Below, one piece after another: positions 29,938 through 33,364 of a DNA stretch of 64,000 nucleotides. Below the pieces are notes generated by a model. It saw nothing but the letters and a program-made list of their open reading frames with translations. It was not told the DNA's origin and made no database searches. Origin of the DNA: Gemmata massiliana (GTDB lineage: Bacteria > Planctomycetota > Planctomycetia > Gemmatales > Gemmataceae); the NCBI GenBank assembly GCA_000531095.1, contig HG799466.1, positions 150,970 to 214,969 on the forward strand, in the 5' to 3' direction. Every line of letters starts with the position of its first letter. Position 1 is the stretch's first letter. A program made the position numbers and the translations under genes.

Positions 29938-30648
29938 TTACTTCCGCTTCTTGGGCTTCTTCGCACCACCAGATTTCGGAGATTTGACGGATTTCGGAGC
30001 GGGTCGCAGTTGCTCAAACAACTGCCCCACCTCGACCTCGAACCCGGGTAGCACGTCGCCGCCATCGAGAGTGTCCGTTTCGCTCAGTTCGGTCACGTCA
30101 TCAGGAGATGTGAAAACTCGCACCGTGCGTTTTCGCGGGTCGATGAACCACACCAGCGCCACTTCGGAAAGGAAGTATTCTTTGAGCTTGCGGTCCATCT
30201 CTTCGCGCGTGTTGCCCTCGCTGAGGATCTCGACCGCAAGGTCGGGCGCGAGTTCGGGAACCGGTTCATCGGGCACGCGCCGATCGGGTACACGGTCCCA
30301 GTTGGTGAACGACACGTCCGGGATACGAACCAACTTGTCCATCAGTTTGAACGGCCCGTCTGCGCCGAGCACCATACCCAAGTTTCCCCGCGCTTCTGAG
30401 TAATTGCTCACGAGGGTACTCAAGCACACGGCAACGAACGACTCCTTCACACCCAGGATCTTTTCGACAAGGGTGCCGTCCACCAGTTCGTAGAGCCGGC
30501 GCGTCTTGGTGCGGAGACGCACTACGTCGCGCGCGGTGGCTCTACCGGGCGTGGGTTTCATGCGCACACGATCGGGCGAAATGCTCCCAAGACTGGCAAG
30601 CAGATCGCCCACCGATTCAAAATCGGTGCCCGCGAGTTTCGTACTCAT
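29938..30648 (-). CDS. Uma2 family protein (PD-(D/E)XK nuclease fold)
   Basis: 236 residues from ATG 30648 (GGAGGG upstream); ATG 30702 is too far out. LYELVDGTLVEKILG, VRIPDVSFTNWDR, PDLAVEILSEGNTREEMDRKLKEYF and ALVWFIDPRKRTV match the Uma2 family, whose members are abundant in cyanobacteria and planctomycetes. The Asp, Glu and Lys suggest a nuclease centre but activity is unproven for the family. The tail is Lys/Ser-rich. It is downstream of leuA on the same strand, 37 bases away. Confidence 0.88.
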   Translation of the reverse strand: MSTKLAGTDFESVGDLLASLGSISPDRVRMKPTPGRATARDVVRLRTKTRRLYELVDGTLVEKILGVKESFVAVCLSTLVSNYSEARGNLGMVLGADGPFKLMDKLVRIPDVSFTNWDRVPDRRVPDEPVPELAPDLAVEILSEGNTREEMDRKLKEYFLSEVALVWFIDPRKRTVRVFTSPDDVTELSETDTLDGGDVLPGFEVEVGQLFEQLRPAPKSVKSPKSGGAKKPKKRK

Positions 30649-30685
30649 CGCGCCCTCCATGAGTGCGCGCCACTCGTACCACGAC

Positions 30686-32272
30686 TCAGCTCGCGGGGAC
30701 AACTTCGGTCGGTACGTCGTCGGTGGGCTTGAGCCGATCGCGGAGCAGGCGCGAGGCGACGCGGTTCACCACTTCGAGGTACGCCAGGGCGCTCGCCTCC
30801 ACCACATCGAGGCTGACCGCACGGGCGCGCGACCGCTTACCGGCGTGTTCGATCTCGATGTTGACCTCGCCCAGAGCGTCCATGTCCTGGCTCACCGACC
30901 GCACGCGGTAGTCCACCACCTTCACCTCCGCGCCGGTGATGCGGTTGATCGCCTTGATGAGCGCGTCGATGGGACCGTTCCCGATGGCCGCGTCGCGGCG
31001 CACGGTGCCGTCAAGGTGCTTCAGCGTGACCGCGGCCGAAGTCTGCGACCCGGTGCCCGCGGTGCTGGTGAAGCCGACGAGCGTCCACAAGTTACCGGTG
31101 CCGGCCTGGAGCTGGTTCTCCGCCAGGGCTTCAATGTCCGCGTCGTAGATCTCCTTCTTCTTGTCCGCGAGCTTCTTGAACTCCTCGAACACGCGGTTCA
31201 GTTGTTCATCGGTGAGCCGGTACCCGAGATCGGTGACGCGCTGCTTGAGAGCGTGCCGGCCGCTGTGCTTACCCAGCACCAGTTCCGTTTGCGGGATGCC
31301 CACGTCTTCGGGCTTCATGATCTCGTAGGTGCTGCGCTCCTTCAGCATCCCGTCCTGGTGGATACCGGCTTCGTGGGCGAAGGCGTTCTGGCCGACGATG
31401 GCCTTGTTCCGCTGCACCTGTTGGCCGGTGATGTGCGCCAGTTTCCGGCTCACGGGGTACAGGTGCCGCGTGTTAATCCCGGTCGCGAGTTTGTAGAAGT
31501 CGGAGCGCGTGTGCAGCGCCATCACCACCTCTTCGAGCGAGGTGTTCCCGGCCCGCTCGCCGATGCCGTTGATGGTGCATTCTACCTGACGCGCGCCCTC
31601 GCCCAGTGCCGCCAGGCTGTTAGCGACGGCGAGGCCCAGGTCGTTGTGACAGTGGACCGAGAGGACGCACTTGTCGATCCCGCGCACGTGCTGCTTCAGG
31701 TGCCGGATGATGGCCGCGTAGTGCGTGGGCACCGCGTACCCAACTGTGTCCGGGATGTTGAGCGTGGTCGCGCCGGCCTCGATCGCGCGCTCGACAACTT
31801 CCGCCAGGAAGTCGAGTTCGGTGCGGGCCGCGTCCTCGGGCGAGAATTCCACGTCCGCGCACCGGTCGCGGGCGCGCTTCACGCCCTCGACGGCCCGTTT
31901 CGCGACCTCTTCCGAAGTCATCCGGAGCTTAAACTCCCGGTGAATCGCACTGGTCGCGAGGAACACGTGGATGCGCGGCTTCGAGGCGTCTTTCACCGCG
32001 TCGGCGGCGCGATCGATGTCGGTCGGGTTGCACCGGGCCAGCCCCGCGATGACCGGGCCGTGGATCTGCCGCGCAATGGCCTGCACGCTCTCGAAGTCGC
32101 CCGGCGACGCGATCGGGAACCCGGCCTCGATCACGTCCACGCCGAGGTCCGCAAGCGCGCGGGCCATCTCCAACTTCTCGGGAAGGTTCATGCTGCACCC
32201 GGGGCTCTGTTCCCCGTCGCGCAGCGTGGTGTCGAAGATGATGACGCGGTTCGGATCAGTCGGCACAGGCAT
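30686..32272 (-). CDS. leuA: 2-isopropylmalate synthase
   Basis: 528 residues, the usual long-form length. The TIM-barrel start VIIFDTTLRDGEQSPG, EAGFP, SVHCHNDLGLA and QNAFAHEAGIHQDG are typical; the C-terminal ~120 residues form the leucine-binding regulatory domain. It condenses 2-ketoisovalerate with acetyl-CoA, the first committed step of leucine synthesis. ATG 32272 has GGAG 6 bases upstream; the longer frame begins within the leader. A terminator hairpin and a leucine-rich leader frame lie immediately upstream (32294-32424). Confidence 0.96.
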   Translation of the reverse strand: MPVPTDPNRVIIFDTTLRDGEQSPGCSMNLPEKLEMARALADLGVDVIEAGFPIASPGDFESVQAIARQIHGPVIAGLARCNPTDIDRAADAVKDASKPRIHVFLATSAIHREFKLRMTSEEVAKRAVEGVKRARDRCADVEFSPEDAARTELDFLAEVVERAIEAGATTLNIPDTVGYAVPTHYAAIIRHLKQHVRGIDKCVLSVHCHNDLGLAVANSLAALGEGARQVECTINGIGERAGNTSLEEVVMALHTRSDFYKLATGINTRHLYPVSRKLAHITGQQVQRNKAIVGQNAFAHEAGIHQDGMLKERSTYEIMKPEDVGIPQTELVLGKHSGRHALKQRVTDLGYRLTDEQLNRVFEEFKKLADKKKEIYDADIEALAENQLQAGTGNLWTLVGFTSTAGTGSQTSAAVTLKHLDGTVRRDAAIGNGPIDALIKAINRITGAEVKVVDYRVRSVSQDMDALGEVNIEIEHAGKRSRARAVSLDVVEASALAYLEVVNRVASRLLRDRLKPTDDVPTEVVPAS

Positions 32273-32293
32273 GAGTAGCTCCAGAAACAGAAA

Positions 32294-32320
32294 CGGCCCC
32301 GGAACTGGGTTCCGGGGCCG
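32294..32320 (-). terminator. leuA leader attenuator hairpin
   Basis: Perfect 12-base arms (CGGCCCCGGAAC with its complement), 3-base loop, then TTTCTGTTTCT on the minus strand, about 20 bases before the leuA start. Its 5' arm can instead pair over 8 bases with leader positions 32369-32376. Confidence 0.8.
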
Positions 32321-32340
32321 CTGCAACCTCGTGGATCGAA

Positions 32341-32424
32341 TCACTTCGGATCGAAACGCGAAGAAGACCGGCCCCGCGGCGGTCCAAGAAGTCGAATGTC
32401 GAGGAGCAGCGGCAAAACGGTCAT
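32341..32424 (-). CDS. Putative leucine leader peptide of leuA
   Basis: A 27-codon frame starting MTVLPLLLDIRLLG holds six leucines within residues 4-13 and ends with TGA, 21 bases before the attenuator hairpin. The Leu cluster and the competing pairings fit ribosome-mediated attenuation: low leucyl-tRNA would stall the ribosome and prevent the terminator. A weak purine-rich site (GACGGA) precedes the ATG. Function is inferred from arrangement; I know of no described planctomycete homologue. Confidence 0.65.
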   Translation of the reverse strand: MTVLPLLLDIRLLGPPRGRSSSRFDPK

Positions 32425-32539
32425 CGGGGTTCCGTCTCGTTCGGGTTGATCTACCGGCAGTGTACGGCGCGAAACGCTACGGATCAACAGGAAGCGTTCA
32501 CGTAATCTCTTCACACACGCGAACGCGGGCCGAAGGCGA

Positions 32540-33364
32540 CTATTTAATGTCGTCGAGAGCCTTAGCGACGGCCTCGCGCACCAGTCCTTCTGTATCGAAC
32601 CGAAGGCCGGTGAGGGTCTTCTTCGTCGTCGGCGCAGTGTTCTCGTCGACGAGTAATGGGACCAGTGCGGTGGCCTGAGCTCGCACCACCGGGCCTTCGT
32701 TGATAGTTTTTGCGATCGTCAGCACGCCTTTCAATGCGAGTTTCTTGTTTTTCAACTGCGCAACGTGGCCGAGCGCACACCGCCTCAGCGTCTCTGACGG
32801 ATTGCCTAACATTGCGATAACGGCCTGGTTCACGCGCTGATCGTCGGGCGCTATTGCCGCAAGGGCGCCAACGGCGGCACACACGGAGTCCTGAGCATTA
32901 AAACTCTCGAAACCGCCTTTGCTAGCCACAGGAACGAGGGCCGTCGCGTGAGCCAAAATTAACGGCGCGAGTGGCTCCGCGTGTGCCCCCAGTTTAGCCG
33001 CCGCCCGGAAGTGTTCGTCACGTTTGTCGATCACGATTCCGAGTGCCAATTTGTAAATCGGCTCATCAACCTTCTTGAGGGCGTCCGCCGCGGCCGTGCG
33101 GACCGAGGTATTCGAGTCCAACATCCCTTCGCAGAGAATGCGGCGATGCCCCTTAGCCTTCTCCCCCAACTCACCCAGGGCCTTGTAAGCCGAAGTTCGA
33201 GTGGCAATCGTCTTACTCTTCGTGTCCTCGCGGAGCTTCGCAATGAGCGCTTTAGTTTCGGGAGTCAGATCGTCTTCTGCGCGGACTGGTGCGAGTAAAA
33301 AGGAACCGAGAGTTCCGAGTGCGAGAAGAGCGCGTGTGGTGATACGAGGGGCCGTAACAAGCAT
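32540..33364 (-). CDS. Exported HEAT-repeat protein
   Basis: 274 residues. Signal peptide ALLALGTLGSFLLAPVRAED; then alpha-helical repeats with the pattern YKALGELGEKA, ADALKKVDEP, ALGHVAQLKN and AVAKALDDIK, each about 35-40 residues. HEAT repeats make protein-binding solenoids. Nothing enzymatic is visible. It lies upstream of, and on the same strand as, the leu leader; no co-transcription evidence. Confidence 0.78.
   Translation of the reverse strand: MLVTAPRITTRALLALGTLGSFLLAPVRAEDDLTPETKALIAKLREDTKSKTIATRTSAYKALGELGEKAKGHRRILCEGMLDSNTSVRTAAADALKKVDEPIYKLALGIVIDKRDEHFRAAAKLGAHAEPLAPLILAHATALVPVASKGGFESFNAQDSVCAAVGALAAIAPDDQRVNQAVIAMLGNPSETLRRCALGHVAQLKNKKLALKGVLTIAKTINEGPVVRAQATALVPLLVDENTAPTTKKTLTGLRFDTEGLVREAVAKALDDIK

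Follow-up and report, generated by a model that had tools for sequence, protein, structure and literature searches.

What controls leuA, the gene for 2-isopropylmalate synthase, in the planctomycete Gemmata massiliana, and could a ribosome translating a short upstream leader decide whether the gene is transcribed? In leuL of Escherichia coli and Salmonella, leuA is preceded by a leader peptide containing Leu codons and by a terminator and an antiterminator that exclude each other, and classical attenuation depends on a ribosome that translates the leader close to the RNA polymerase. Transcription-translation coupling has been questioned for Gemmata, and a spatial separation of the two processes has been proposed for the group; since the mechanism needs coupling, a switch at leuA matters for this question. 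The window analyzed here, i.e. the whole stretch of DNA under study, comprises 64,000 nt of G. massiliana (GCA_000531095.1, contig HG799466.1, positions 150,970-214,969). From the sequence of the window and of related loci, we assign a probability of about 0.9 to the reading that leuA is preceded by a ribosome-mediated transcription attenuator responding to leucine. Sequence and comparison show the leader, the hairpin, the genome-specific fit of antiterminator and terminator arm and the bias to minor codons, from which we infer promoter, ribosome stalling, termination and the leucine response.

The leader, the hairpin and leuA all lie on the minus strand (Table 1), a point absent from the preliminary description. 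A classical ribosome-mediated attenuator has a short open reading frame (ORF), rich in codons for the end product, directly upstream of its target, and here a Leu-rich ORF precedes leuA, with Leu at positions 4, 6, 7, 8, 12 and 13 (codons TTG, CTG, CTC, CTC, CTT and CTT). The preliminary description of this DNA had recognized these six Leu residues, but the leader that it quoted covers the first 14 residues of an ORF that runs for 27 codons. An attenuator also has an intrinsic terminator between leader and gene, and a putative one is found here, in a position that recurs among relatives: its arms, segments B and C, form 12 Watson-Crick pairs around a loop of 3, or 14 pairs when the flanking A-U and G-U pairs are included, and it is followed by a tail that is T-rich, although C and G interrupt the T tract. 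The 12-base arms and the T-rich tail just upstream of leuA had been described correctly. The hairpin core (ten fixed bases per arm, loop 3-11) occurs at one site in the 9.27 Mb genome. Finally, an attenuator has an antiterminator that uses one terminator arm and is mutually exclusive with the terminator, and segment A, which lies wholly within the leader ORF, with 28 nt between its end and that of the stop codon, is an exact complement of part of the 5' arm, as had also been noted before.

Table 1. Features of the leuA upstream region of Gemmata massiliana, in window coordinates.
Feature	Position	Strand	Remarks
Putative promoter, -35 element TTGATC	32482..32487	minus	17 nt before TACACT
Putative promoter, -10 element TACACT	32459..32464	minus	Presumed transcription start ~32452
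Leader ORF MTVLPLLLDIRLLGPPRGRSSSRFDPK	32341..32424	minus	27 residues; ATG at 32424, TGA at 32343-32341
Tandem CTT-CTT, minor Leu codons proposed as control codons (codons 12-13)	32386..32391	minus	
Segment A CGGGGCCG, antiterminator 5' half, within leader ORF	32369..32376	minus	8/8 pairs with 32320-32313 (CGGCCCCG)
Spacer hairpin between A and B, spanning the leader stop codon	32327..32363	minus	Predicted, constrained fold
Segment B, 5' arm common to terminator and antiterminator	32309..32320	minus	
Segment C, terminator 3' arm	32294..32305	minus	
T-rich terminator tail TTTCTGTTTCTG	32282..32293	minus	
Shine-Dalgarno-like GGAG of leuA	32279..32282	minus	
leuA, 2-isopropylmalate synthase	30686..32272	minus	528 aa, ATG at 32272; TIGR00973 1.1e-219, NF002086 4e-231

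Promoter-like sequences with a score of at least 10 were found in 49 of 90 loci, against 5.6% of shuffles, and a scan with stricter criteria listed no promoter at the window leader. A function of the leader at the peptide level, suggested by its conserved SSSRF/SSRVG end, was considered and rejected, as one related locus (L011) reads the same DNA in another frame; judging from this one locus, conservation there would seem to concern the RNA and not the peptide. Antisense to leuA, the window also contains an open frame of 590 aa (30506-32278, plus strand), which GC-rich codon use probably explains.

A Leu-rich ORF (at least 5 Leu in 9 residues) with a terminator-like hairpin downstream arose in only 2 of 1000 dinucleotide shuffles of the window upstream region. 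Taken in the window alone, the 8-base match of A to B is not significant in such GC-rich sequence (z -1.2, p = 0.119); since it lies within chance, relatives were compared, and the support for A:B pairing is comparative. Of 95 Gemmataceae genomes, 82 could be used, the other 13 having either no leuA match or a sequence piece without the gene start. Genomes from other families, 28 of 151, were picked by hand: three of the four that represent a second family within the order, plus 25 of the 147 from the rest of the class. For this comparison, a leader was an ORF with at least 4 Leu in 9 residues, accompanied by a hairpin downstream.

By this measure, leader and hairpin were present upstream of leuA in 72 of the 82 Gemmataceae (shuffles, 26/820; reverse strands, 2/82), in all three genomes of the second family (shuffles, 0/30; reverse strands, 0/3) and in 16 of the 25 hand-picked genomes from other families of the class (shuffles, 5/250; reverse strands, 0/25), counts that do not represent independent events since many loci come from related species. 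Examples of leaders in relatives include MNRKLLLLELLLILPLAG, MANLLLLLGLLLTLG and MTSRIGLLLLDLLLLPGETS. The preliminary description had named loss of the leader in close relatives with the same gene order as a point against an attenuator; counted irrespective of gene order, the arrangement was mostly kept, and ten Gemmataceae did not show it (L022, L024, L121, L135, L136, L164, L167, L168, L171 and L173). Two of these, L022 and L024 of genus g32, whose leuA is 83% identical to that of the window, retain hairpin-like sequence, but their Leu codons have become few, which looks like decay of the leader or possibly a change of signal. Six others, from genera g25 and g35 (L135, L136, L164, L167, L168 and L173), lack a Leu-rich leader followed by a hairpin upstream of leuA.

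Beyond the class Planctomycetia, the distribution of leader and hairpin is patchy. Among 22 loci from other planctomycete classes, both were clear in L215 and L233 and possible in L209, and the combination was not seen in the remaining loci. In a broader set of 79 named leuA loci from many phyla, at least 6 Leu in 9 residues occurred in 14 (shuffles, 4/790), four of which are planctomycetes (L034, L035, L040 and L041). Those of the 14 with a strong terminator-like hairpin as well include Verrucomicrobia and Pedosphaera records (L056, L071, L073 and L098) and Syntrophaceae of the Deltaproteobacteria (L086 and L093). In the window's own genome, inspection by eye of the 350 nt upstream of ilvB and trpE revealed no leader rich in Leu, Ile, Val or Trp; a terminator-like hairpin upstream of trpE is situated near the end of the preceding gene.

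The competing pairing was assessed in 91 loci by measuring how well the stretch from the last Leu codon to the hairpin pairs with the hairpin 5' arm. These loci are what remained of 110 after 19 without the combination of leader and hairpin had been left out, and removal of a further 28 as near-duplicates gave 63 dissimilar loci. Over the 63, the fit of A to B was on average better than in shuffled sequence (mean z -2.10, se 0.16), whereas the control with the 3' arm gave a mean z of -0.16 (se 0.18); single loci reached p<0.05 in 36 cases. Moreover, the fit is specific to the genome. Pairing with a locus's own arm averaged -18.15 kcal/mol, compared to -14.73 kcal/mol with the arms of other genomes, a difference equalled in 0 of 20000 permutations, and the own arm had a median rank of 10 among the 63 arms (0 being best), ranking 54 or worse in five loci. 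The signal was absent (z -0.2 or higher) in seven loci of two genera (L138-L140 and L142-L145). Hairpin arms vary by genus (e.g. CGGCCCCGG, CCCTGGGAC and CCCTAGGA), and on this comparison A and B change together over the set, though the fit is imperfect in some loci. Recurrence and own-arm fit thus lend support to the leuA leader-peptide attenuator with competing antiterminator that had been proposed from the window.

Constrained folding of the window RNA yielded both of the states that a switch would require. With the leader masked through the last Leu codon and segment C not yet made, A paired with B over 8 pairs, closed over the spacer hairpin; with the mask extended to 12 nt past the stop codon, B paired with C over 14 pairs. 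In 23 loci chosen from the 91, the respective states had 4-16 A:B pairs and 8-18 B:C pairs. When the full RNA was folded at equilibrium, B:C prevailed in the window even with the Leu codons masked, and likewise in most of the 23 loci, so that the switch must be kinetic, with the order of synthesis deciding the outcome. The Leu-codon mask did not include the downstream footprint of the ribosome; assuming a footprint of about 12 nt, A would be reached by a ribosome positioned on codon 13, but not by one on codon 12 or on codons 6-8. A consensus fold of 26 close sequences contained the terminator only, with 11 pairs, 2 of them changed on both sides, and since the arms hardly vary there is almost no covariation in this set. 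The spacer hairpin, a candidate pause hairpin, is present in the constrained fold and missing from the consensus fold.

These observations suggest the following course of events. RNA polymerase would start about 28 nt upstream of the leader ORF, at the putative promoter, with a ribosome translating the leader behind it. When charged tRNA-Leu is scarce, the ribosome would halt at Leu codons 6-8 or at the CUU of codon 12; if it reached codon 13, it might already extend over the start of A. Downstream of such a stalled ribosome, A could pair with B, enclosing the spacer hairpin, while C was still to be synthesized; no terminator would form and leuA would be transcribed. When leucine is plentiful, the ribosome would pass A and open the spacer hairpin at the stop codon, and A and B would be kept apart. 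In the window's genus, A lies well before the stop codon, and the terminating ribosome would not cover A; instead, it may occupy the loop that separates A from B and open the spacer hairpin. With A:B pairing prevented, B would pair with C and transcription would end before leuA.

Other explanations of the same anatomy have to be weighed against this one. The hairpin might simply be the terminator of the upstream gene (32540-33364), a gene of the same strand with its end some 220 nt upstream of the hairpin, and the Leu-rich ORF a product of chance. We regard this as very improbable, since leader and hairpin recur together far above the level in shuffles (72/82 against 26/820), a promoter-like pair lies between this gene and the leader, and A fits the arm of its own genome. 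Control at the level of translation, in which leader or hairpin would hide the leuA ribosome-binding site or leuA would be reached by reinitiation after the leader, has several features of the window in its favor: the GGAG starts 12 nt beyond the point where pairing in the 12-bp stem ends, the Shine-Dalgarno region is a possible pairing partner of the Leu-codon run (z -2.3), and a GTG overlapping the stop codon of the leader shares its frame with leuA. Over the 63 loci, however, pairing of the Leu run with the Shine-Dalgarno region had a mean z of -0.14 (se 0.13) and fell below -1.64 in only five, the distance from hairpin end to start codon varied from 6 to 191 nt, and the open frame containing leuA was of variable length (516-742 aa among the full-length copies listed). 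It is because of this variable distance and the T-rich tail that the anatomy indicates attenuation of transcription and not, as the preliminary description had it, of translation; translational control appears improbable to us.

The pairing statistics also bear on a resemblance to the LEU element of Actinobacteria, where the Leu run and the leuA Shine-Dalgarno sequence would form the base of a pseudoknot, possibly bound by a protein. In both systems, the ORF that immediately precedes leuA contains a Leu-codon run (PMC1262725), and the window taken alone yields the base stem at z -2.3. Yet this stem is absent as a rule over the 63 loci, and a T-tailed, terminator-like hairpin is present here, as opposed to the conserved pseudoknot with a base stem of Leu codons and Shine-Dalgarno sequence described in PMC1262725, which leaves an element of this type with hardly any likelihood. 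Equally little credence can be given to a T-box or an amino-acid riboswitch. The kind of target gene and the presence of a terminator would be the same, but no Rfam family reached threshold in the window, low-threshold scans of the leader and 20 related loci returned 9 matches to unrelated families, all below threshold, and no match to the Rfam T-box model was listed in the window or in these low-threshold scans. In the scan with all 4227 families of Rfam 15, no match was listed to the leucine leader family of gamma-proteobacteria, presumably RF00512.

The leucine attenuator proposed for planctomycete leuA would thus work by a known mechanism, as in the enterobacterial leu attenuator, from which it departs in control codon and layout. 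Like leuL, it has a Leu leader, minor control codons, and a terminator and antiterminator before leuA. Unlike leuL, it occurs in a different phylum, has no Rfam match and uses, in the family of the window, CUU in place of CUA, the latter being the control codon of the enterobacterial leu leader and rare in the genome (PMC1183508). The layout differs in that two alternative helices and a predicted spacer hairpin are present, and in that A lies within the ORF in the window's genus; over the whole set, the paired stretch and the stop codon of the leader overlap in 41 of the 91 loci (e.g. TCCTAGG with UAG inside).

Among other branched-chain amino acid systems, the ilv-leu attenuator of Staphylococcus aureus, for which leucine-dependent attenuation has been proposed, is similar in having a 26-aa leader with Leu codons and a terminator 52 nt past the stop codon, but it carries Ile and Leu codons before ilvD, and its antiterminator captures the poly-U tail instead of the 5' arm (as described in PMC5794164). 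The ilvB uORF motif of Corynebacterium likewise combines an upstream ORF, an antiterminator and an intrinsic terminator, differing in its Ile, Leu and Val codons, its target ilvB and its restriction to one genus (as described in PMC11109978). For Planctomycetes, a peak of leader genes near structural genes has been reported (PMC4833913); the subject there is short distances from leader to gene, and leuA goes unmentioned. Planctomycetes are absent from the main text of three surveys of bacterial noncoding RNAs and upstream ORFs (PMC11109978, PMC8632094 and PMC6429828).

Searches of a collection of open-licence papers gave no report of a planctomycete leuA leader (see also PMC2965389, 2010). An earlier prediction may be contained in Lopatovskaya 2010, reportedly a comparative survey of attenuation in bacteria.

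The choice of Leu codons in the leaders is biased toward minor codons. Across 28 loci that belong to the window's genus or to near genera (L024 being left out, as the ORF there is not the leader), CTT accounts for 68 of 157 leader Leu codons, compared to 2.7% of 1200 in leuA. Within the window's genus, 17 of 18 loci have CTT at the position matching codon 12, and 10 have it at the positions of both codons 12 and 13. The preference extends to 19 other Gemmataceae genomes, with CTT making up 53 of 136 leader Leu codons against 612 of 4489 in nearby long ORFs, the proportion being higher in the leader in 17 of the 19. Outside the order, a different codon stands out: in 18 genomes, CTA represents 22 of 115 leader Leu codons against 2.9%, a count for which two of 20 genomes (L181 and L196), having no Leu-rich ORF, were skipped and in which one ORF (L198) is probably not a leader. 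Eight of these 18 genomes belong to family f3, in which CTT is preferred (19/48 against 12.4%); the CTA-rich families comprise one to three genomes each. Nine further loci, drawn from other families of the class and including one near-identical pair (L211 and L212), had CTA in 19 of 65 leader Leu codons, against 1 of 310 in leuA. As the counts use related species, p-values for them are too optimistic and were not relied on. In one leader (L195), TTA provides four of the six Leu codons, unlike the CTT or CTA seen elsewhere.

Among the tRNA loci examined in the window's genome (matches of at least 80 nt and three clusters, out of 78 matches), tRNA-Leu genes with the anticodons GAG, TAG, CAG and CAA were found and none with AAG. 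CUU is therefore probably read by the GAG tRNA, which would also serve the common CUC. According to selective-charging theory, the codon employed in a leader is one read by the tRNA that is first to become uncharged (PMC1183508), and the use of CUU in these leaders fits this idea as set out there, without proving it.

A coupling-dependent switch in most of the Gemmataceae examined argues, on genomic grounds, that transcription and translation can meet in these cells, at least at leuA, and through this switch the coupling question becomes testable. We consider the odds to be slightly better than even that leucine attenuation of leuA is old in the class Planctomycetia, that its upkeep in Gemmataceae is genetic evidence for coupling at least at leuA, and that the control codon has switched by lineage, with CUU, probably read by tRNA-Leu GAG, in Gemmataceae and family f3 and CUA in several other families. 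If so, the switch of control codon between families would provide a natural test of the selective-charging theory as presented in PMC1183508.

The tRNA genes of this genome also show some features of their own. While single tRNA genes occur elsewhere, one cluster (L317; G000:C9:204000-207000) holds 19 tRNA genes within 2.5 kb, including further copies of tRNA-Leu GAG, CAG and CAA, and another (L322; G000:C4:636000-639200) holds 12 within 1.4 kb and one further on. In addition, a tRNA-SeC with the anticodon TCA was identified (L320; G000:C9:29438-29610), suggesting that selenocysteine may be used in this genome.
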